This document shows positions 16,991 to 63,437 of a stretch of DNA of 64,000 nt, one piece after another (the stretch's first letter is position 1; every line of letters begins with the position of its first letter). This DNA is from Medicago truncatula (lineage: Eukaryota; Streptophyta; Magnoliopsida; Fabales; Fabaceae), in the NCBI RefSeq assembly GCF_003473485.1, contig NC_053048.1, positions 40,606,755-40,670,754 of the forward strand, given 5' to 3'. The position numbers and the translations under genes were made by a program. Below the pieces are notes generated by a model. It was not told where the DNA came from and searched no databases. It worked only from the letters and a program-made list of their open reading frames with translations.

Positions 16991-18953
16991 ATGTCAATCC
17001 TCAGTCGATTGAAACTCGCAGGTACTCGTTGTTTCTTCTCTCTCTCTCTCTCATGAAATTTCTTTTCTAGATTCTATTTGGGGTTGACCGCTGCTATTTT
17101 TACTTTTATTAATTGCTTCATGAATTTGTTATTGCTTTGTTACAATTCTGTTCTAAGAAAATTCTACTGCGCTTCTTAATTTAAGTAGCTTCTATCAATA
17201 GCTTTTTCTTTTGTTGAATTTGTGTGTAACAACTAATTTAGCCTCACACAGAAATAATATATATGTTTAGTCTTGGCAAGGGACCAAATACTAACGTAAC
17301 AATTATCTATCATACTGCGTGCTTGCAGCAACAATGAAGAGCTGTGAAAAGCTTGAGAATGAGTTGCCTAATCATATTATATCTTATATCTTTTCCAATT
17401 TAGCTTTGAAAGATTTGGTGAAAACCAGTGCATTGTCCAAACAATGGATTCACGAATGGGGATTAAGGATGGACCTTAACTTCGATCTCTATACCATGTC
17501 TGACTATAACACAGATCAAGACTTGTCACAAATCCTTCCTCTCTGTCAAAGGTTTCACTTTCAATCTGAATTTGCCACAAGATTGGATCAATTTATGCTC
17601 CATTATAAAGGTGCCATGATCCGTTCCATTCGAGTAAAATTTCCATTATGTAATGAACATAGGGATGTCATTGATAGATTGATCTCCAAAGGAATTGCTA
17701 AGGGTGCCGAACATATTCAACTTCTCTTCTCTTCTGAAACAACTGATACTACTATTTCTATTTTGCCATACAAATTTTCCCTTATTCTCTTACCTCAGAA
17801 TGATTCTGTGACCTATTTGCACCTACAAAACTGCCTCTTAGTCAAACCCAGATACTTCTCTCGATTAAAAAATTTGAGAACTCTTGTGTTACAACAAATT
17901 ATTGTGAAGAAGACACTCGTTCAGACTTTGTGTTCAAAGTGCAAACACCTTGTTGACTTAACCCTTGATGGTTGTAAGATCACCTCCAAGTTGAAAATAA
18001 TCATCCCATCATTGCTTCATTTGAAAATTGTTAATGTTGGGTGTTACTATCGAGAGCCTATAAATATCATTGCATCAAGTCTCTTGTCCTTGGAATATTC
18101 TTGTCTTAAACATTATGTAGAACACCCAATGAGCATTCGAGCTCCTATGTTATCCAAGTTTGGCTTTAGAGGTATTGTGTTTTCAAAGGGTATAGGGTTA
18201 TCTGGATTGAAGAACGTAACAACAATTGTGTTTGATTCATTACTATCTGATCTATCCACGAACATCTTGCCTCATTTGTTTTCTGAATGTCCTCAACTTG
18301 AAGATGTCACCTTTAAGAACTGCTTGTTCAAAAGTTCAATAAATAATAAATTTACTAGTTCGAAATTACGTCAGTTAATCATACTTGATAGTGTGGTGAA
18401 TGACTCTCCTTCCCCTCCTTCTGAGATATCTATTGATGCATTAAATCTTTCATCTTTTGAATATACTGGGTACACCACAAGGATAATTTCTTTTACGGCC
18501 CCAAGGTTATCAAAGGTTTTCTGGGATACATCAGAGAGGGAGAATATACCACATCTTTTTGATCCTATTGCAAGTTTACCACATATTGAGAATTTAGCTA
18601 TGATTGTCGGCTCTTTACAAGTGAGTTACTCAACGATATTCCAACACTATAGTGCATTCTAGCACTTTCTAGGTTTCTTTCCATTACATTGTTCACTAGT
18701 TGCTTTTAATTCACTTAATTATCATTATCATTAGCAGGTAAAGGAATTGGCGAAAGTATTGGTTCAGTTTCAAAATCTTAGAAAATTGGAGTTACATATT
18801 GATGGAGCATGCGATCCTACTATGGACTACTTTTGGCTTTTAGATATTGCAACAGCTTCTCAACATCTCCAAAAACTTACTCTGAATGTAAGTCATTCAA
18901 ATTTTTTTTTTTTTTTTTTTTTTGTCTTGAATGGAACTAGTAGCTTATTTTAA
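16991..18953 (+). CDS. F-box/LRR/FBD protein, copy 1 (3' truncated)
   Basis: F-box proteins are substrate receptors of SCF ubiquitin ligases. Exons: 16991-17021 (MSILSRLKLA), 17329-18620 and 18738-18887, GT-AG junctions. The F-box lies at the start of exon 2: ELPNHIISYIFSNLALKDLV followed by TSALSKQWIHEWG with the conserved Trp. Leucine-rich segments follow (VTYLHLQNCLLVK, LRTLVLQQ, CKHLVDLTLDGCKI, CPQLEDVTFKNCL), then the first half of the FBD region in exon 3 (LAKVLVQFQNLRKLELHIDG). No copy-specific final exon exists. If the last donor is not used, translation stops at 18953 inside a poly-T-encoded Phe run. It could instead splice to the exon at 21719 in the next copy; phases fit. Starting at Met 17334 is an alternative. 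Confidence 0.75.
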
Positions 18954-19180: not shown

Positions 19181-19623
19181 TATATTATAACCCTAAAATT
19201 TATAACTGACTCCTATTCAATCATATATTCGAAATAGGACCTTTTTAATTTATGAAGTAATCATACTCACCCGATAAAATATAAAGTTACCAAATTTATT
19301 AACTAAGATATAAATACATGTGTGTGTATATATATAATAAGTTAGAACCTTTTATTGAAAACTAGCTTCAGGAGTAAAGATAGAATATTTTCAAATTATA
19401 TGTCCAATCAGGGCCCTTTATGTCATAAATCGATTTCATTCATAGACACTAATGTATCTCTCAAAATTATTTGTTTTTTTGTTTTCAAAAATATTTATGT
19501 GTTAAATTCCCATAGTACAAAAAAACAAAGCTCATACATATTCCAGTTAGTGAATACAAGAATTAAAATATACTATTTCTTTCAATTAGAATAAACCCGT
19601 AAATAGGTCTTTACTTCAACTTA

Positions 19624-22036
19624 ATGAAGAGCTGCGAAAAGCTTGAGAATGAGTTGCCTGATCATATTATATCTTATATCTTTTCCAAGTTAGATTTGGT
19701 GAAAAACCAGTGCATTGTCCAAACAATGGATTCTGTGACCTATTTGCACCTACAAAACTGCCTCTTAGTCAAACCCAGATACTTCTCTCGATTAAAAAAT
19801 TTGAGAACTCTTGTGTTACAACAAGTTGATGTGAAGAAGACACTCCTTAAGACTTTGTGTTCAAAGTGCAAACACCTTGTTGACTTCACCCTTGATGATT
19901 GTAAGATCACTTCTATGTTGATAATAATCAGCCCATCATTGCTTCGTTTGAACATTGTTAATGATGGGTTTTACTTTCGAGACCTTATTACTATCATTGC
20001 ATCAAGTCTCTTGTCCTTTGAGTATTCTTGTCTTGAAAATAGTGCAGTCCACCCAATAAACATTCAAGCTCCCATGTTATCCAAGTTTAGCTTTAGAGGT
20101 GCTTTGTTTTCAGAGCATATAGGGTTATCTGTATTGAGGAACGTAACAACAATTAAGTTTGATGCATTGCTATTTGATCTATCCACAGACATCTTGCCTC
20201 ATTTGTTTTCTGAATGTCCTCAACTTGAAGATGTCACTCTTAAGAACTGCTTGTTCACAAGTTCAACACAAATTACCAGTTTGAAGTTACGTCAGTTGAT
20301 CATACTTGATAGTGTTTGGGTGAATGACTCTCCTTCTGAGATATCTATTGATGCATTAAATCTTTCATCCTTTGAATATACCGGGTACACCACAAGGATA
20401 ATTTCTTTTACGGCTCCAAGGTTATCGAAGGTTTTCTGGGATACATCAGAGAGAGAGAATAGACCACACCTTTTTGATCCAATTGCAAGTTTACCACATA
20501 TTGAGAATTTAGCTATGATCGTCGGCACTTTACAAGTGAGTCGCTCAATGATATTCCAACACTATAGTACATTCCAACAGTGTCTAGGTTTCTTTCCATT
20601 ACGTTTTTCACCGGTTGCTTTTAATTCACTTAATTATCATTGTTGTAAACAGGTAAAGGAATTAGCGAAAGTCTTGGTTCGGTTTCAAAATCTTAGACAA
20701 TTGGACTTACATATTGATGGAGCATGTGATCCTAGTATGGACTACTTTTGGCTTTTAGATATTGCAACGGCTTCTAGGCATCTCCAAAAACTTACTGTGA
20801 GTGTAAGTTATTCAAACTTTTTTTTTTTTTTTTTTTTTGTCTTGAATGGAACTAGAAGTTTCTTTTAAAACTTAGCTGCAGTACGATAGGTATTGTTTTT
20901 GCTATTTCCCAATTGAAACTAGACACATGTAAGAGTAGATAAATAAAGTTGAATAATTTTTGTTCTTCTTTTTAAATATTAACACTAACTTAAAACTCAT
21001 ATACTTTAAAATAAACAAATTTCTCTGAATGTTTTTTCATAATAGTAAATTAGATTTATTTAACCAAAAATCCCAAATCAACGATCAAACCTTTAATTGA
21101 TATTGAAAATGGGTGAGAGACCGAAACTCATAAAATTGAATTTGAGAGACCAAAAAGTTGGATTTTAAAACAGGGGACCAAAACTTCATTTTTCCTAAAA
21201 CAAGGCAACCAAAAGTGCATTTAAGTCAAAAACCACTATCAAACAACTCTATTTTAGTCTTGTGTGTTTGTATGGAAGTTATACTTTATCGGTTTATAAA
21301 TACACGTCGTAGTCAATCACTTCACATATGCTAATACACAACTTTGATAATCAATATCTTTAGTTATCTATGATAAAAAAAAAATTATAACAATTAGATA
21401 TGTTATAAATATTCATTGAGACAAGTTGAACAAAATCTTATATACTAACATTATTGTTTATATATTAGGTAAAAATATATTACACATTATGAATGTGAAT
21501 AATACATATTATCAACGTCAAAAAAGAAAGAAAGAATAGTACACATTATCAAATTGTTACATGTATCTTATAAGCTAATAGTTTGACCTTGTCAAACATA
21601 ATATTTATCATAATAAACATCTTATTTCAATTAAAATAATGAATAATTCGTGGATTAATTTTATATGCTAATGGAATTTTAAAATTCTCATAAATGTATC
21701 GTTATTTTTAATTTTCAGATTAAAAATCTTCATCCGGAACATTCACATATGGTTGGATTTAAGAGGCAGAAAAGCGAATATGAGGGGTTTTCTCATAGTG
21801 TTTTGAAATATGTGGAGTTTCTCGGCTGTGTTTGCTCCATAAATGTTTTTGAGTTAGCTACTCACCTATTGAGGAGTGCAAATTCCCTTAAGAAAATGAC
21901 TTTCCATTACAGTGACAGAGTCTATCTTGGAGGTTGTATCAATGCATGTGGTGGTGATTGTTGGTTAGGAAAGAATGTTATTCGCGAGATGCTTAAGGAT
22001 GAAGTAAATGAACAATGTCAGCTTATTATTCTGTAG
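19624..22036 (+). CDS. F-box/LRR/FBD paralogue, copy 2, with a truncated F-box
   Basis: Exons: 19624-20535, 20653-20802 and 21719-22036 (GT-AG, all phase 0), 459 residues. Sequence similarity to copy 1 begins exactly at the ATGAAGAGCTG start and runs to about 20870. The N terminus reads ENELPDHIISYIFSKLDL and then jumps to DSVTYLHLQNCLL: a 355-bp deletion between two gattc pentamers, plus one added A and a 9-bp loss, removes the second half of the F-box including the Trp, yet restores frame. LRR segments are kept. The last exon encodes the FBD tail (FSHSVLKYVEFLGCVCSIN, LLRSANSLKKMTFHY). SCF binding is probably impaired; it could act as a decoy or be decaying. No separate promoter or first exon is seen. 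Confidence 0.7.
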
Positions 22037-27935: not shown

Positions 27936-30900
27936 ATGTGCGGCGCCGTCGCCCCAAGGTTCATCTTCATCCTCCGCCACAATCTCCGTCTCCTCTCTCC
28001 CTCTTTCTCCTCTCATTTCCACCACCGCACTCTCTTTTCTTCATTCACTCGTTCTCCTTCTTCTTCTTCTCTCACACCAAAACTCAAACTTAAAGCCTCA
28101 CACCACCACCAACAACAACAACACATTCACACCCAACCTTCACAATCTCCTCTCACTGGGACCCACCATCCATGGCCAGAGTTTTCCAGATTTCTCTCAC
28201 ACATCTCCTCCGCCGGCTACACTTCCCCCTCCGATGCTTTCTCTCCCACCGTAGAATTGTCGCAGGCTGAAGTCAGTGCTTGCTTGTCTTTCGCTCGAGA
28301 TAGACCTAACCTTCTCAGGTTTGTTTCTGTTTCCAAATTTCATTCCTCTGTTTATTCATTTTTGTTCTCTTCCATTCAATTTAATTCAAAATTCATTTTA
28401 ATATAGGTTGCTTTCGATCAGAGACGTAGCAGTTGTGGTTCAACATGGTACTCCTTTTATGTTCTCGGACTCGCAGGATTCTGTTTCCAAGATGAAGTCT
28501 TTTCTATCCAACGGTGACTCCACTGTTAGTCATACTTTTTCATGCTTTGTATTTTCGCCTTGTTTGGATAAACAACTTAATTTGAAGATTATAGCGCTTA
28601 TGTATAAGCTATTTCTATTATAAAATATAAAATTAAGTTGAATTGGTTTTGTATATGCTATAAGCTATCTTGGAGAGCATATAAATAAGCTCAAAACAAC
28701 TTATGAACATGTCATAACATAAGTTCTCCCAAATAGTTTCGCAAGTGTTTATGTAAGTAGATAAGCTCAAAAAAGTCAATCAAAATGTGCCCTTTGTAAC
28801 ACTGCATTAGTGTTTTTTGGGACTGCAAAATGAACTGTTTTTAAATATACGAACTTGCTGATTTGAATATGTTTATGATAGAACATTATGGCGTAATTTC
28901 ATCCATGTAATTGAGCCCAGTTAGTGGGATAAGACTTGGTTGTTTACTTGCTTTTGTAAGCTTTCTAGCACTATAGCACAGTACATCATAAGACAAGAAA
29001 CTAGGCGGCACTTTGTCAGAAGCAAGAGCCTTATATTGCCATGCAAAATTGTGCTTTTATGTCCTTTCTCTCCATTTCCGGTGTTTTTAGCACCTTAGAC
29101 ATTATGAGTGTGTTCAACGTTTCTAAGACTGGAAGCTTCAAGTTCTTTAGTTTTTCATAAATCATTATCCTTAGGCTTTGTTTGCGAGTTTGGAGGGGAG
29201 GGGAAGGGAAGGCTTTGAGGGGTGGAAAATATGTGGGAAAATTGAGAAATCTTTTAAATTTTTTAAAAGAGTAGTTTTTTAGAGAATAATAAATTAATGC
29301 ATATAAAAGGCAACCTGGTGCACTAAAGCTCTCGCATACACAGGGTCTGGGAAGGGGTCCCACCATTTGGTGTATTGTACGCAGCCTTATCCTGTTTTTA
29401 CACAAGAGGTTGTTTCCAGGACTTGAACCCGCGACCTTTCAGTCACATGACAACAACTTTACCAGATTACTATATTTTTAATTTAAAAAATAATATAACA
29501 ACATAGATTAAATTTGAAGAATTCATATAAACCCTCCAAAAACCCTCCTCCAATACAATTTGTTAGTTCCCCCAAATGAGGAGGGTTTAGTATTATGAAG
29601 AAAAGTTAACCCCCAAAGCCCTCCCCTCCCCTCCCCTCCAAACTCGCAAACAAAGCCTTAGTGGGTGGGTGGGGCACTTTAAGCCCCTTCTATTTATTTT
29701 CTTGTTTGAAACAAATAGAATTGATCTAGGGTGGTGCTATTAGTTTTCAAATTTATGTAATGTAGCAACTGACCATAAACTTCCTGCTCAAAAGTATGAT
29801 CTTTCATATTGGTTTCCTGAAGCTTCTATTAATTTCTTTTAAAATTAAAACTATGATGCCGTTTATTTGCACAAGTTTCTATCTTGAAATTCCGCAAAAA
29901 AAAACTGCCGCCAGAGTGACTTTTGTTCTCTGCTTGTCTCTCTAGTTATTGTTTTATGGTTCAGTTTCTCAGTTCTTCTATATTTACTGGAAATTGGTCT
30001 CTTTGTGTCTGCATGATAGTTCTGGAGATAAGATTATATAGGAGAGAAAGAAGGGAAATTTGTTGAGAATGTAGAATATTATTATTTATTCAGTTTTTTA
30101 AGTTAGTCTATTTTATACTTTACTTTTTTTTTTTATAATTAATTCTATAGTTCAGTTGGAAATTACTTTTTTTTTTATTTTTAATGGCAAATGTTAGTAG
30201 TTAGTTTGTTAGATTAATATTTAGTCCTTTGTTCGGTTTGAACCCAAAACCTCCAACTCCTTTTCCCTTTAGCTCAAACCAGTTGAGTTACCCAACCCCC
30301 CTCGGAAACTATTTGAATTGTTTGAGGGTATTTTCGATAGTTTCAGGAAAAAATAATGAAGATAGAAAACTGCCTGCTACTATATTTGTTCATGATATAG
30401 ATAGATGCAAATGTAGTAAAGTTCATTTTTGCCACTCTGTAAATTTCATTTTAGTCTGGTATCATTTTTAAGATTGTTATGATATATGTATAACTATTTG
30501 TTATTCTAAGTCCTCTGTCTTATGTTTGAGCTGAAGTATTATATGGAATTTTTTATTTTATTTTTTATTTGTTTTAATTCTTGTTGGATCTTATGCAATC
30601 TTTGGCATGAAAAACATTTTTGAGTGATGGTTAATGAATTATAACATATCTAGACTACAGGTTAAATATGTCAATTTCTGTCACTTCTTTGCATCTTAAA
30701 TCTCCTGGATCAGACTTGGCTTTAGCGATGAGTTTTCTTTTTATGCTATGCTCTTTTACATTCAGCAGGCTTTTTTTTCTAACAAAACGTAGTTGCTATT
30801 ACAAGATACAACATTCAAATTTAGTCACCGGTCTTTTTACATTCCTATTATTGTTATTGTTTATTGAACATGCAACACCTTAGCTGCATAAGATGCATAT

Positions 30901-33900
30901 TGGTGTATATAGAATCAGAAAATAGAAAGCAATTTAAAATATCAGTTGGTGATTGGAAATTTTGATCATGTGGCCTTTTCTTAAATTCATATTTCTCTTG
31001 AATATCTGTTTATCTTTTCTTCTCGTTCTAAACTATTTGAGAAACAATAAGCATATTGTATGGAACATAACTCCTTTCATGTTCCTCAATTTCAAATTTT
31101 GACCAGTTTTTTAAGCGGTTTATGATTTGTGCTTGATTGTAGGCCTTGGACTCTGATAAAGCAAATATGGTTGATCTGATGAAATTTATGCTGAGTTACG
31201 CAAGTAGCTGCTTGGTCTCTTCAGAAATGAACAATCTTTATAACAGAAATCTTGTTGAATCCTCTGTCAGAAACCTATTTGGTGAACTTTTCAAGCTGAG
31301 TTATAGCACACCTGGTCCTAACTCTTTTGATTCAGTGCAAAATCAAATGCCTGGTGGTAGATTTGAGCATACAATGCCTCCCGGACAAAACATTGAAATG
31401 AAAAGGGGTGATTGGATTTGCCCAAGGTATTTTCTAAAATCATTTCAAGTTTTTTCTTTTGAGTCCCAGTGAAATAATAAACTATGTTATATTGTGTAAT
31501 ACTGGAAAACCAAGGTGAGTGTAGAGAAAATGTCATAGTTGTTTATACAAGTTTTATATAACATACTGATGAATTAGCATTCTCTTTTTCTAATATTGGC
31601 AGGTGTAATTTCATGAATTTTGCAAGAAATATGAAATGTCTTGAATGTGAAGAAGCAAGGCCAAAAAGGCAACTGACTGGAGGAGAATGGGAATGTCCTC
31701 AGTAAGTATTTTTCTCCCTCTGAATCTTTTTCCCCCGAAGTTTTGATGCATACATCCAATTAACTGGATTTTCATTTTCAAGGTGTGATTTTCATAATTA
31801 TGGGAGGAATGTAGCTTGCTTACGGTGTGATTGCAAGCGGCCTGGACAAATATCTTTGGGTTCCATCAATACCACATCACATCCAGGGTATGGAAATGTA
31901 AACCATTCTAATACTTCAGATATTGATGCTAGGTTGGTGGCTAATGAAGAGAAGGCACGACGTTGGTTTAACAAGGTTTCTCAACTAGACAGCAACTCTG
32001 ATATTAACAGTGTGATAGATGATGAAGATTTTCCGGAAATAATGCCGTTAAGGAAAGGAGTTAATAGATTTGTTGTAAGCACAAGGAAAACTCCACTGGA
32101 GAGGAGGTTGACCAATGCTCAATACAAGAGAAGCTTGGGAAATAACGACGCTCCCGAAGTTAAGGACTATAAAACTGGGGAGTCAGCCAAGTCTCGTGAT
32201 ACTCTGGACGACATTCTAGGTCGTTCAACTGGCCCTCCTCGATCTGACTACAAAAACATGGGTGCTGAGCAAAGTTTCAGTGGAGAAAGACAACCGTCAA
32301 TTGCTAGCAATACATCACATTTCCAAGATGTGAAAGGGAACAACACTAATACCCTTTCCCCTTTTCCATCATATGCCAGTTCCGGTGACACCGACAGTAC
32401 ACAACTTTCTACTAACTCTTCAAGTGAAAACGTCATCAAGGACAAAGAGAGAGAGCAAGCTGAAAAATCTGATAGATGGTTTAGAAAGATTGCGGAGCTG
32501 AATGATGTTCCAGATATAACAAGTGCAATATCCGATGATGATTTCCCTGAAATAATGCCAATGCGTAAAGGAGAAAATCGATTTGTTTTTAGCAAGAAAA
32601 AGGATCGGTCCTTGACAACACCAGCATATAAGAGACGTTTGGCCATGGAGCAATCTGGCAATACTAACTTTGTCCCCTTAGTACCCTTTCCCCCAGATTA
32701 CTTTGCCAAAAAGGAAAAACCACAGGCAGATGGAACAGATTCAACAGACAGGTCCAATGTTGAATCATCCTCAGTATCTGAAGGGACTGAGATGTCAGGT
32801 GATGCTACAGCTAGACCTGAACAGAGTCCAGGACCTTCTTCTGATCAGATCTCAAGTAAAAACAATCGTATTGGTTCTACTTATGCGGCTTCAAGCAGTG
32901 GAAATTCAAGTCAGGATTTTAAGAGACGTTTGGCCATGGAGCAATCTGGCAATACTAACTTTGTCCCCTTAGTGCCCTTTCCCCCAGATTACTTTGCCAA
33001 AAAGGAAAAACCACAGGCAGATGGAAATGTTGAATCATCCGCAGTATCTGAAGGGACTGAGATGTCAGGTGATGCTACAGCTAGACCTGAACAGAGTCCA
33101 GGACCTTCTTCTGATCAGATCTCAAGTAAAAACAATCGTATTGGTTCTACTTATGCGGCTTCAAGCAGTGGAGATTCAAGTCAGGATTTTAAGAGACGTT
33201 TGGCCATGGAGCAATCTGGCAATACTAACTTTGTCCCCTTAGTACCCTTTCCCCCAGATTACTTTGCCAAAAAGGAAAAACCACAGGCAGATGGAACAGA
33301 TTCAACAGACAGGTCCAATGTTGAATCATCCTCAGTATCTGAAGGGACTGAGATGTCAGGTGATGCTACAGCTAGACCTGAACAGAGTCCAGGACCTTCT
33401 TCTGATCAGATCTCAAGTAAAAACAATCGTATTGGTTCTACTTATGCGGCTTCAAGCAGTGGAAATTCAAGTCAGGATTTTAAGAGACGTTTGGCCATGG
33501 AGCAATCTGGCAATACTAACTTTGTCCCCTTAGTGCCCTTTCCCCAGATTACTTTGCCAAAAAGGAAAAACCACAGGCAGATGGAAATGTTGAATCATCC
33601 GCAGTATCTGAAGGGACTGAGATGTCAGGTGATGCTACAGCTAGACCTGAACAGAGTCCAGGACCTTCTTCTGATCAGATCTCAAGTAAAAACAATCGTA
33701 TTGGTTCTACTTATGCGGCTTCAAGCAGTGGAGATTCAAGTCAGGATTTTAAGAGACGTTTGGCCATGGAGCAATCTGGCAATACTAACTTTGTCCCCTT
33801 AGTACCCTTTCCCCCAGATTACTTTGCCAAAAAGGAAAAACCACAGGCAGATGGAACAGATTCAACAGACAGGTCCAATGTTGAATCATCCTCAGTATCT

Positions 33901-34710
33901 GAAGGGACTGAGATGTCAGGTGATGCTACAGCTAGACCTGAACAGAGTCCAGGACCTTCTTCTGATCAGATCTCAAGTAAAAACAATCGTATTGGTTCTA
34001 CTTATGCGGCTTCAAGCAGTGGAAATTCAAGTCAGGATTTTAAGAGACGTTTGGCCATGGAGCAATCTGGCAATACTAACTTTGTCCCCTTAGTACCCTT
34101 TCCCCCAGATTACTTTGCCAAAAAGGAAAAACCACAGGCAGATGGAACAGATTCAACAGACAGGTCCAATGTTGAATCATCCTCAGTATCTGAAGGGACT
34201 GAGATGTCAGGTGATGCTACAGCTAGACCTGAACAGAGTCCAGGACCTTCTTCTGATCAGATCTCAAGTAAAAACAATCGTATTGGTTCTACTTATGCTG
34301 CTTCAAGCAGTGGAAATTCAAGTCAGGATTTTAATCAAGATCATGTGCCAAATCTGACAGAGAGTTCATCCACAGATTCAGCAGCTGAGAACCAGAGTGT
34401 CGGAACAGAATGGTCAGGGAAAAGTTTAGAGGGATCAGCGGTAAGGGAACCGGATCCTTTGGATATGTCTGAGGAGGCAAAGGCAGAGAGGTGGTTCCGT
34501 CGTGTTGCCCAAATTAAGGATATTTCTGAGCTCAGTCAGATTCCAGATGAAGATTTTCCTTCAATAATGCCTATGCGTAAAGGGGTGAACAGATTCGTTG
34601 TGAGCAAGCGGAAAACACCACTGGAAAGGAGATTGACATCTCAGCAGTACCGAAGAAATCTTCCAGCTGTGAGCTCAGATCCTGTTAAGAGAGAAAATGA
34701 AGGTAGCTGA
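27936..34710 (+). CDS. VAR3: VAR3-type RanBP2 zinc-finger protein, chloroplast; frameshift in repeat array
   Basis: VAR3 is a chloroplast zinc-finger protein needed for plastid and palisade development in Arabidopsis. Exons: 27936-28318, 28407-28524, 31143-31426, 31603-31701, 31783-34710. Exon 1 begins MCGAVAPRFIFILRHNLRLL and is a Ser/His-rich transit peptide; another in-frame ATG lies at 27864. Two RanBP2 fingers span exons 3-5: GDWICPRCNFMNF...CLEC and GEWECPQCDFHNY...CLRC. Three VAR3-type motifs follow, each RWF...DEDFPEIMPxRKG(V/E)NRFV, near 31960, 32475 and 34490. Between motifs two and three lie six tandem repeats (32630-34332). One C is missing at 33542-33545 relative to the other units, so the frame breaks and stops at 33802. 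Restoring one base would give about 1270 residues, against roughly 760 that I recall for Arabidopsis. Confidence 0.85.
28558..28793. mobile_element. MITE of the GTTTGGATAAACA family in VAR3 intron 2
   Basis: The left end ccttgtttggataaacaact and right end aaaaagtcaatcaaaatgtg with following ccctt form degenerate inverted termini. Between them are the family's repeated ataagct phrases and the segment tgcttatgtataagctattt-like seen also in the 52471-52755 copy. Confidence 0.6.
29174..29657. mobile_element. Harbinger/Tourist-type MITE carrying an Au SINE
   Basis: Termini GGCTTTGTTTGCGAGTTTGG and ccaaactcgcaaacaaagcc are a perfect 20-bp inverted repeat, extended by G-rich and C-rich arms (ggaggggaggggaag / ctcccctcccctcccctcc). 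TTA flanks both ends (29171-29173, 29658-29660), the usual Harbinger TSD. It lies in VAR3 intron 2. Confidence 0.85.
29306..29462 (-). mobile_element. Au SINE
   Basis: Read on the minus strand it contains gttgttgtcatgtgactgaa, the B box ggtcgcgggttcaagtcct, and then the Au body caggataaggctgcgtacaa, ggtgggaccccttcccagac and gtgcaccaggttgccttt. These phrases match the Au SINE family known from legumes and grasses. It is inserted in the MITE at 29174-29657. Confidence 0.85.
30221..30305 (-). mobile_element. SINE-like relic in VAR3 intron 2
   Basis: On the minus strand the sequence reads gggtaactcaactggtttga, then about 40 bp later ggttttgggttcaaaccga, similar to A- and B-box elements of tRNA-derived SINEs. 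Borders and target duplication were not found. Confidence 0.4.
32630..34332 (+). repeat. Six-unit tandem array in the VAR3 coding region
   Basis: Units start at 32630, 32921, 33191, 33482, 33751 and 34042. Lengths are 291, 270, 291, 269, 291 and about 291 bp. Each encodes a disordered Ser/Pro/Lys-rich segment beginning KRRLAMEQSGNTNFVPLVPF, then PPDYFAKKEKPQADG, and ending AASSSG(N/D)SSQDF. The 291-bp form has TDSTDRS after ADG; the 270-bp form lacks it. Units are nearly identical. Unit 4 has four instead of five C's at 33542-33545. Confidence 0.95.
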
Positions 34711-59157: not shown

Positions 59158-60819
59158 TATATTAATAAGAATCTTGCTAACCAATGCTCTCAGTGCAATG
59201 GTTAAGGAAACTAAAAATAATAATTTTAAATTGGAAACTACAATTTTCAAACTTTTTAAAAGTTGAGTTCATCACATTTTACCACTTTCCAAGATAATAT
59301 TTCTATTATTGTTCTATTAACCAATGTCCTAAAGACACTCTTTAGCATTTTCCTATTAATAATTAGACTCACCAAATATCATATTATTGCGTTAATATTT
59401 TTAAGCATCAAATGTCATATTATGGTAATGGAGATAATGAAGAGGTAAATATCGGAGAAGATTTTGACTCATCTCAACCACCAAAGAATCCTCGTATATC
59501 TTTATCTTTTTTAGGAGTAGTTTATAAATTTAGTTTATGAAAGATAAATTATCACCTTATATATATTTTTTTATCAAATTATTACCTTATCTATCAACCT
59601 TAAAGCCTATTAATTCTAAAATTTATCTTTTATTAACTGCATTTATAAATGATTTGAAACCTTTCAAAAAATATTGAAAAAGAGATATTATATACATAAT
59701 ATATTCTGTTTTGGAAAAAGTAATAAATAGGTATAAGTGTAAAATACAATTTGATTAATACATTTTTTGGATACAAATTAAAATTAATACTTTATTAACA
59801 CTGCAAAACAAAATCTGAAATGAGATTTTTTTATAAATAACTTACTCTTTTTTACACATTAAATAATTTACTTAAAATCACACACATATACATCCATTAA
59901 TACGAGTAATGTGTCCGTAAAGTATGACTTATATGATAATGTTTTTTTTTACACAAATAAACGATATTCATTCACTTAAATTGATAGAATATATTGATAC
60001 AATACACATTCAAAGGTCGTTAAAAACAAAAAGGATTAATTTGCGAATAAACTCACAACATTCATGCTAATGTTAATATTGTTAGAGTGAACATTTGTTG
60101 TAGTTATCTTAGTTTGAGTCAGATATAGTTCTTCGGAGTTTTGTGGTAATTCTTATCCCTATGTCTACATATCCCAAAAATATTCGAAAAATGGAATTAA
60201 ATTATAAATTATGTCTTGAAAAGATAAGATTTTAAATTTCTAAAATATTAAATGCATAATTTTCAATAAAATATTTCTATCTTTAATTTTTTAACTTTTG
60301 CCTTCAGGGCATAAGTTAGCATTTCTCATTGGATTCTTGTATGGTGTGTTGAAATAAATGCAAGTAGAATCAACTTTTTGATGTTCATTCGATACCATTG
60401 TTGATTAATATCCACCATCACTTTGAGATCATTGAGGTCACGTTACACCTTTTATCAATAATAACATCTTTAAATAATGCTAACGATTGATATTTGACTC
60501 AAAACCATTGAGAGAATAGAACGTTTCCTCATTAGACCCTATTCTCACGCTTTCTTCTTCTTCCTCTCCAATTCCACACTGTCTCACACATTTCAATTCT
60601 TCATTATCCATTTTCTTTTTCAATTCTTTTTCTCTAACTTTTCAATGCACACCATGGTCCACATTTCTCACGTTCATGACGGGACATCTATTATCTTTTT
60701 TGAATGACGCTAAGGACTGAACATCTGGAACGTGATCAAAAGTGGATCAGATAACAACGATCTTGATTGTTTTTATTATATTTCATATAACAAAGTGATA
60801 CAATTGGGATGCAATTACA
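59158..60819. other. Intergenic and upstream region of the GT47 gene
   Basis: No gene is recognised. The stretch is AT-rich to about 60500; 60530-60640 is C/T-rich (ctttcttcttcttcctctcc) and could be a transcribed leader or promoter pyrimidine patch. A TATA-like ttattatattt lies at about 60772, some 45 bp before the ATG. Confidence 0.35.
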
Positions 60820-63437
60820 ATGGCAGAGAAAAATACTTCTGCCATTAAGGTTGTTTCAAGAAAATCTTTATGGTTCTTTTTCACAACAACAACATTATTT
60901 TTCATCATGTCATGGCTCTTTGTTCTCCGTTCCACACGTTCAGATTCAACACCAGCCACCATCTCACAGCTTCTTTCCACCACCTCCAACGACGGTTCAG
61001 ATTTGGTAACATCTCAATCACAAAACTCTGAATCCTCCTTCAGCAATAGAGCAATCCTTGTAAACACCGAAACAAAAACACCAGAAACTCCAAAATGTAT
61101 TACTGAAACAACCACCATATCAAACAACGACACCAAGAGCAATAACAATAAAAGCAACGCTGTTTTGAAAGTTTTCATGTATGATTTACCTCCCGAGTTT
61201 CATTTCGGGTTATTAGATTGGAAAGGCGATGAAAAGACGAAAAACGTTTGGCCTGATATGAAAACCAAGATACCACATTACCCTGGTGGTTTGAATTTAC
61301 AACACAGTATTGAATATTGGCTTACATTAGATATTCTTGCTTCAGAATTGCCAGAAATTTATCCTGCTAGAATTGTAACCAGAGTTAGAAACTCGACCGA
61401 AGCTGATGTTATATTTGTGCCATTTTTTTCATCTTTGACTTATAACAGACACTCCAAAACAGGTCCACATGAAAGGAGGAGTAGAAACAAGGTGTTGCAA
61501 GAGAAGTTGGTGAGGTATTTGATGAATCAAGAGGAATGGAAGAGGTCAGGTGGAAGGGATCATTTGATCTTGGCTCATCATCCTAATAGTATGTTGGATG
61601 CTAGAATGAAACTTTGGCCTGCAACTTTTATATTGTCTGATTTTGGGAGATATCCTCCTAATATAGCAAATGTTGATAAAGATGTGATTGCGCCGTATAA
61701 GCATGTTATTGCTTCTTATGTTGATGATCAATCTACCTTTGATAGCAGGAAAACTTTGCTTTACTTTCAAGGAGCTATTTACAGAAAAGATGTATGTTAT
61801 GTTCCTCTTTCTGTTTTGATTTATGTGTTTCTTTTGTTGTTTCTTTAGCTTTTCTGATAATTAAGTCTTTACATCATGAATTCTTTTAGGTAGATAACAC
61901 TGTCTTAGGCTCAGTTTGGATTATTTTCTAACTTGTCTCTTAATTGAATTGAAAGGAAAAAGCTAATTTCATCCTATATAAAATACTAATGTTCAAAAAT
62001 CTCATCATTTTTGCAACAAAATTAGTTTAATATTATTTTTTTCCTTAAGCACTTGTGGAGAAATTTATCCAATCTGGCTTATAGTTGAGTAAATTTTGAG
62101 GAACTTGGCTCCTTTCTCGCAGGGTATGTTTGGATTCTTGGTATAAGGCGGAATGAAGTGAAATGGAATAGAATCGGCAAGTTCATTTTTAAGATGTTAT
62201 CACATTCCATTCGAGTTCACTCCATTCCACCATATACCATCAACCAGAACATACTCCGAATCAGAGTGTCTGTTGCTGTTTCCTCAAGGTTATCCAGGGT
62301 AGTCTTAGGTGTCTTGAATTCCTCTATATCATACTTTTGCTCAACTAAGTGTAATGTATCAAGATGTTGTCCTTTCTCTAAGGTACCATAGGCATTAAAT
62401 TTCATTTATGTGCATTTTGGTTTGAAGAAGCAACACTAATTAATTACTAAGATCCAGCACAGACAGATTTGTTAGGTAAAATGTTGGTTTAACCGTCCTA
62501 GTCGCATAATTGAGCACATCTATTTGATTTAGCAAGCATAGCTAAGAAGTTAAACCTGTGATTTTACTAACATCACTAAAGAAAATAAAATAGTTTTGTC
62601 TAGTAAATTAACTACCTTCAACCTCTATATGTAGCATTCAATTCTATATTACTATGTAAACAAAAAATACTATTAACTGGATTATTTTCTGAATTGTTGT
62701 TACTCTTCTGATCCTCACTTTAAGAGAAATTCTGTTCTCCCATGCTTCCTTGGGTTCGTTACATATACATACAAGGGCTAAAGTGTTCTTAATTTTACTT
62801 GAAATTTTGCATGTAACATGTTTTTTAACTTAAAAAATCATTAATTGTGCTCAAAGTGGGTTTTTCTCATGCACAGGGTGGTTATGCTAGGCAAGAACTA
62901 TTTTATCTTCTGAAAGAAGAAAAAGATGTACATTTTTCATTTGGAAGTGTACAGAAAGGTGGAGTGAGGAATGCAACAAACGGCATGCGATCTTCGAAAT
63001 TCTGTCTCAACATAGCTGGCGACACGCCATCATCAAATCGCTTATTCGATGCAATTGCAAGTCACTGTGTTCCTGTCATAATCAGTGATGAAATTGAGCT
63101 TCCATATGAGGATGTTCTCGACTACTCCAAGTTCTGCGTATTTGTTCGCACAAGGGATGCTGTTAAAAAGAAGTATCTGATAAACTTCATTAGGAGTATT
63201 GGCAAAGATGAATGGACAAGAATGTGGAACAGATTGAAAGAAGTTGAAAAATTCTTTGAATTTCAGTTCCCTTCTAAGGAAGGTGATGCTGTTGAAATGA
63301 TTTGGCAAGCTGTTTCACGTAAGGTTCCTTTTATGAAGTTGAAAACAAACAGGTCTAGGAGATTTTTTAGAGCCCTTTATGGTAATAATAAATATAAGGG
63401 GCATAAATCAATACATGCACCACCTAATTTTTGGTGA
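60820..63437 (+). CDS. Exostosin-family (GT47) glycosyltransferase, ARAD1-like
   Basis: GT47 enzymes are Golgi type II membrane proteins that build plant cell-wall polysaccharides; ARAD1 of Arabidopsis is a putative arabinosyltransferase for pectic arabinan. Exons: 60820-61791 and 62877-63437 (GT-AG, phase 0), 510 residues. A short cytoplasmic tail is followed by a membrane segment (LWFFFTTTTLFFIMSWLFVL, about 17-36), then a Ser/Thr/Asn-rich stem to about residue 112. The exostosin domain opens LKVFMYDLPPEFHFGLLDW and includes ADVIFVPFFSSLTYNRHSK, LLYFQGAIYRKDGGYARQEL, GMRSSKFCLNIAGDTPSSNR and CVPVIISDEIELPYEDVLDY, matching the family's conserved order. It ends after a basic tail. The acceptor inferred is gcacag at 62871-62876. 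Substrate specificity is inferred from similarity only. Confidence 0.9.
62122..62262. repeat. Small inverted-repeat element in the GT47 intron
   Basis: The left segment gggtatgtttggattcttgg followed by tataaggcggaatgaa is mirrored by tccattccaccatatacc and aaccagaacatac. A probable MITE of about 140 bp; the target duplication was not determined. Confidence 0.5.

Follow-up and report, generated by a model that had tools for sequence, protein, structure and literature searches.

The assembled sequence of Medicago truncatula carries a one-base loss in a C-run within the coding tandem repeat of an OZ1/VAR3-type gene. The loss is probably an error in homopolymer length left over from long-read assembly and not a real feature of the plant DNA, and the gene is most likely intact in the plant. 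Support for this reading is indirect and comes from the sequence of one assembly. In the window (the whole 64-kb stretch of DNA that was analysed), the gene comprises five exons encoding two RanBP2 zinc fingers and three VAR3 motifs, laid out as follows.

27936-28318, forward strand: exon 1, beginning with the ATG at 27936, with an open frame and a GT donor
28407-28524, forward strand: exon 2, with AG/GT borders and the frame kept
31143-31426, forward strand: exon 3, in which the first RanBP2 zinc finger begins (splice borders; Pfam PF00641)
31603-31701, forward strand: exon 4, with the remainder of zinc finger 1 and the beginning of zinc finger 2 (PF00641, two stretches)
31783-34710, forward strand: exon 5, the last, with the remainder of zinc finger 2, the VAR3 motifs and the repeat array; original stop at 34708-34710
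31925-32158, forward strand: VAR3 motif 1, the query itself (100%)
32459-32644, forward strand: VAR3 motif 2, about 54-56% identity to motif 1
32630-34340, forward strand: coding tandem array of six units, 3' end approximate (TRF end at 34334)
33482-33750, forward strand: unit 4 of the array, 269 bp (270 in its sister, unit 2)
33542-33545, forward strand: C-run with one base fewer than its counterpart in each of the other five units, from unit comparison; the frame is lost here
33800-33802, forward strand: first in-frame stop after the shift, TAG
34468-34662, forward strand: VAR3 motif 3, 65% identity to motif 1; beyond the early stop as assembled

With GT/AG at their borders, the exons add up to 3812 bp, which is 2 mod 3 (3n+2) and thus one short of a multiple of three. 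Shifting the exon 4 border one base onward gives immediate stops, so the frame defect does not stem from a mis-set splice site. Pfam PF00641 matches the predicted protein in two stretches (E = 3.2e-13), corresponding to two RanBP2-type zinc fingers. The three VAR3 motifs are each about 70 residues long and are mutually similar at the DNA-encoded level. Neither motif 1 nor the C-terminal piece of the predicted protein matches an NCBIfam entry, and the C-terminal piece has no match in Pfam. The predicted structure of motif 1, obtained from a three-row alignment, is of low confidence (pLDDT 61.1, pTM 0.40).

This layout resembles that reported for Arabidopsis OZ1/VAR3 (At5g17790), in which three long C-terminal repeats come after two RanBP2 zinc fingers (PMC4359148): the Medicago gene likewise has two PF00641 stretches and three VAR3 motifs. 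It differs in having six near-identical units between motifs 2 and 3. The gene is filed as OZ1/VAR3-type by its architecture, not by alignment to the Arabidopsis protein, and "VAR3 motif" is the name given in the sequence-only reading of this DNA. We infer that these motifs correspond to motif 5 of OZ1, the long C-terminal repeats that OZ2-OZ4 are described as lacking or conserving poorly (PMC4359148). According to the same source, zinc fingers number two in OZ1 and OZ2, three in OZ3 and four in OZ4 of the Organelle Zinc finger family, and Arabidopsis OZ1 is needed for editing at 14 chloroplast sites. The Medicago product is thus a putative chloroplast RNA-editing factor (C-to-U). A literature search on zinc finger protein VAR3 in Medicago found no paper in the collection searched.

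Other genes were observed on both sides. Two adjacent open frames at 17295-18662 and 19603-20868 belong to one F-box/LRR family; the second has no Pfam F-box match and is without a stretch that in the first separates the start of the F-box from the LRR part (deletion or intron). At 60799-63437, two open frames match neighbouring portions of the Exostosin GT47 profile and are probably exons of one gene.

The C-run of unit 4 has four C's, and all five other units have five. The native frame is read up to codon 882 (residue 882) and is then lost, the next in-frame stop being the TAG at 33800-33802. As assembled, the predicted product has 967 residues, with the final 85 out of frame; it would retain both zinc fingers and two of the three VAR3 motifs, leaving motif 3 unread. 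The original frame downstream of the loss is open for 396 codons, starting at 33520 and ending with the stop at 34710, and the early stop lies 908 nt upstream of the end of the original stop codon. The measured details of the sequence-only reading, namely four C's at 33542-33545 in place of five, a frameshift running to a stop at 33802, removal of the third VAR3 motif and five exons totalling 3812 bp, are all borne out.

The units of the array are very similar to one another. They start at 32630, 32921, 33191, 33482, 33751 and 34042, with spacings of 291, 270, 291, 269 and 291 bp. Units 1, 3 and 5 have the same sequence, from which unit 6 departs by a single substitution. Three shared substitutions set units 2 and 4 apart from units 1, 3 and 5, as does a common 21-bp in-frame gap, which, apart from the C-run, is the sole length difference within the units and a multiple of three. 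Between units 2 and 4, the C-run base is the only difference. Because units 2 and 4 differ there alone and units 1, 3 and 5 not at all, chance drift between diverged repeats does not account for the short C-run. The order long-short-long-short-long-long indicates that units 3-4 are a copy of units 1-2, as read from the sequence: over 906 bp (32629-33534), comparison with the stretch 561/560 bp downstream gives zero substitutions and one homopolymer indel, the short C-run. The region at 32630-34340 is a young in-frame coding expansion whose units encode 97 residues, except for one type with 90, and its length may vary among accessions. As a baseline, 20 random 10-kb stretches yielded two young tandem arrays, both in one stretch, which is too few for comparison.

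That the copies differ solely by homopolymer length, with no substitution, makes an assembly error likelier. The same near-identity would allow the 561-bp dimer copy to be a false tandem expansion introduced during assembly, the short C-run having arrived with the extra copy, and an error of this kind could be present in a false copy assembled from raw long reads. We regard this as very unlikely. The array is 1.7 kb long, short relative to long reads, so its copy number should be well spanned, and tandem duplication of a dimer is ordinary in coding repeats.

Some points favor a loss in the plant itself. Slippage in C-runs is a normal mutation, and the dimer duplication is itself recent, with zero substitutions over its length. 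The assembled sequence reads as a truncation, and a real, very recent frameshift would either leave a 967-residue protein without VAR3 motif 3 or reduce the mRNA through nonsense-mediated decay. The latter variant draws on the early stop lying 908 nt before the original one, given that a 3'UTR of more than 300 nt is listed among features of nonsense-mediated decay (PMC6504953). A real frameshift is nevertheless unlikely. A protein search of the whole genome with motif 1 returned three matches, all inside this gene, and a backup gene with VAR3 motifs was thereby rejected as a candidate. The sole motif-bearing gene found would then be damaged, although its Arabidopsis counterpart is reported to be needed for green young seedlings (PMC4359148). 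The undamaged frame downstream also argues against a real loss, as do the one-C losses in polyubiquitin genes of the same assembly described below. Both the confinement of the motif 1 matches to a single gene and the 396 codons still open count in favor of an assembly error.

We note that this selection argument is weakened because the protein as assembled, with both zinc fingers and two VAR3 motifs out of three retained, might be functional. Arabidopsis oz1-1 seedlings, moreover, are described as yellow, light green on sucrose medium and then transferable to soil (PMC4359148), so that even the mutant can be grown. A partly redundant OZ2-OZ4 relative may exist in the genome; such relatives are not expected to match motif 1, given that they lack the repeats or conserve them poorly. 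A real loss would mean that the sequenced plant, probably A17, truly has an OZ1 lacking motif 3 (or splices round the shift), has no second motif-bearing copy and greens normally, a combination that we consider improbable. If true, the third VAR3 motif would be dispensable, and the young coding-repeat array would be a hot spot of mutation in a factor for organelle editing.

Splicing round the shift was addressed by scanning for donor/acceptor pairs that span the C-run under simple consensus thresholds, and 36 pairs pass. The 12 top-scoring of these all remove 2 mod 3 bases and would keep the downstream frame, as expected if a real shift were bypassed by splicing out part of the array (an exitron). 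These pairs all draw on a single type of donor and on two types of acceptor separated by 15 bases, which recur along the array, and the frame match is therefore close to a one-in-three chance. Lower-scoring pairs among those listed remove 0 or 1 mod 3. An exitron is accordingly the least credible of the explanations, and hardly to be expected.

A residual assembly error would persist as follows. Long-read assembly would leave a homopolymer-length error in the C-run of unit 4, and short reads from unit 4 would align better to unit 2, its otherwise perfect sister. Short-read polishing, which this assembly presumably underwent, would be blind to the error. The error would survive because the sister draws the reads away, and the true C-run of unit 4 would have the same length as in the sister units. 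The sequence around the C-run fits such a course. Identity with unit 2 extends 352 bp leftward and 549 bp rightward, and none of the placements of reads of 100, 150, 250 or 300 bases over the C-run (0/95, 0/145, 0/245 and 0/295) separates unit 4 from unit 2. Longer reads begin to do so, with 43 of 395 placements at 400 bases and 289 of 595 at 600 bases. Unit 4 therefore combines a one-base change in homopolymer length with a site beyond the reach of uniquely placed short reads, and the failure of 100-300-base reads to tell the two units apart makes an assembly error likelier.

What is reported of such errors agrees with this. Leftover errors of long-read assemblies are described as mostly homopolymer indels, and where a repeat has one erroneous and one error-free copy, reads are said to align to the latter, so that the error receives no coverage (PMC8812927). 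The case drawn in Fig 1A of the Polypolish paper, a homopolymer error in one repeat copy with the other clean and preferred by reads, resembles the situation at unit 4, and this match again raises the likelihood of an assembly error (PMC8812927). The published work differs in dealing with bacterial assemblies and with Nanopore and Illumina reads, both simulated and real (PMC8812927), whereas the assembly here is from a plant and agrees with one that used PacBio reads. For M. truncatula A17, Mt5.0 is given as 429.43 Mb in 42 scaffolds, the longest 64.76 Mb, with an N50 of 56.24 Mb, and 109x PacBio reads were reportedly used to improve it (PMC10885650). The analysed assembly fits Mt5.0 as a match of statistics, not as a sequence identification.

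Ubiquitin units of the same assembly served as a control, with 62 sites from 25 of 30 loci (the other 5 overlap those 25); the count covers the sites in these loci that fit the codon pattern, out of a genome with many further matches, mostly ubiquitin-like. Two of the 62 are one base short, both in C-runs. Where the C-run is five or six long with the lost base counted, 2 of 16 sites are short, against 0 of 46 at shorter runs, in what is a small control (Fisher p = 0.063). They lie in the polyubiquitin genes C4:43052047-43053857 and C6:30640630-30641528, each of which has one unit of 227 rather than 228 bases, with the loss in a C-run. The remaining units encode the same ubiquitin in 3 of 3 cases at C6 and in 6 of 7 at C4, where the seventh has one changed residue. 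One-C losses in polyubiquitin genes of the same assembly make an error in the OZ1/VAR3-type gene likelier.

The two cases are not equally close to ours. Over 150 bases, the short C4 unit and its sister are separated by 1 mismatch and 1 gap, compared with 0 mismatches and 1 gap in the OZ1/VAR3 array. The short C6 unit has 7 differing positions over 150 bases from the nearest paralogue compared. With seven differences from that paralogue, short reads should have been placed there, and repeat ambiguity fails as an explanation for C6 unless a closer copy exists; its loss may be real, or an error that survived in some other way. Inaccessibility to unique short reads was thus found for only one of the two controls (C4), and the repeat-ambiguity argument is weakened because the C6 loss has no near-identical sister among the compared paralogues. 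Both loci (C4:43051800-43054100 and C6:30640300-30642000) are candidates for assembly errors of the same kind, C4 more than C6.

The sequence-only reading had called the gene broken, and had named both a truncation and an assembly error as possibilities. Its measured details hold; the word "broken" fares less well. A one-base homopolymer change, a site that unique short reads cannot reach, one-C losses in two polyubiquitin genes and a motif-bearing gene that is single in the genome search all make the evidence lean towards an assembly error.

If the loss is an assembly error, the predicted OZ1/VAR3-type protein is wrongly shortened, and surveys of gene loss could score it as a null allele. From the polyubiquitin cases, it would seem advisable to check C-runs within coding tandem repeats across the assembly. 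If the loss is real, it would provide a natural test of the role of the third VAR3 motif.
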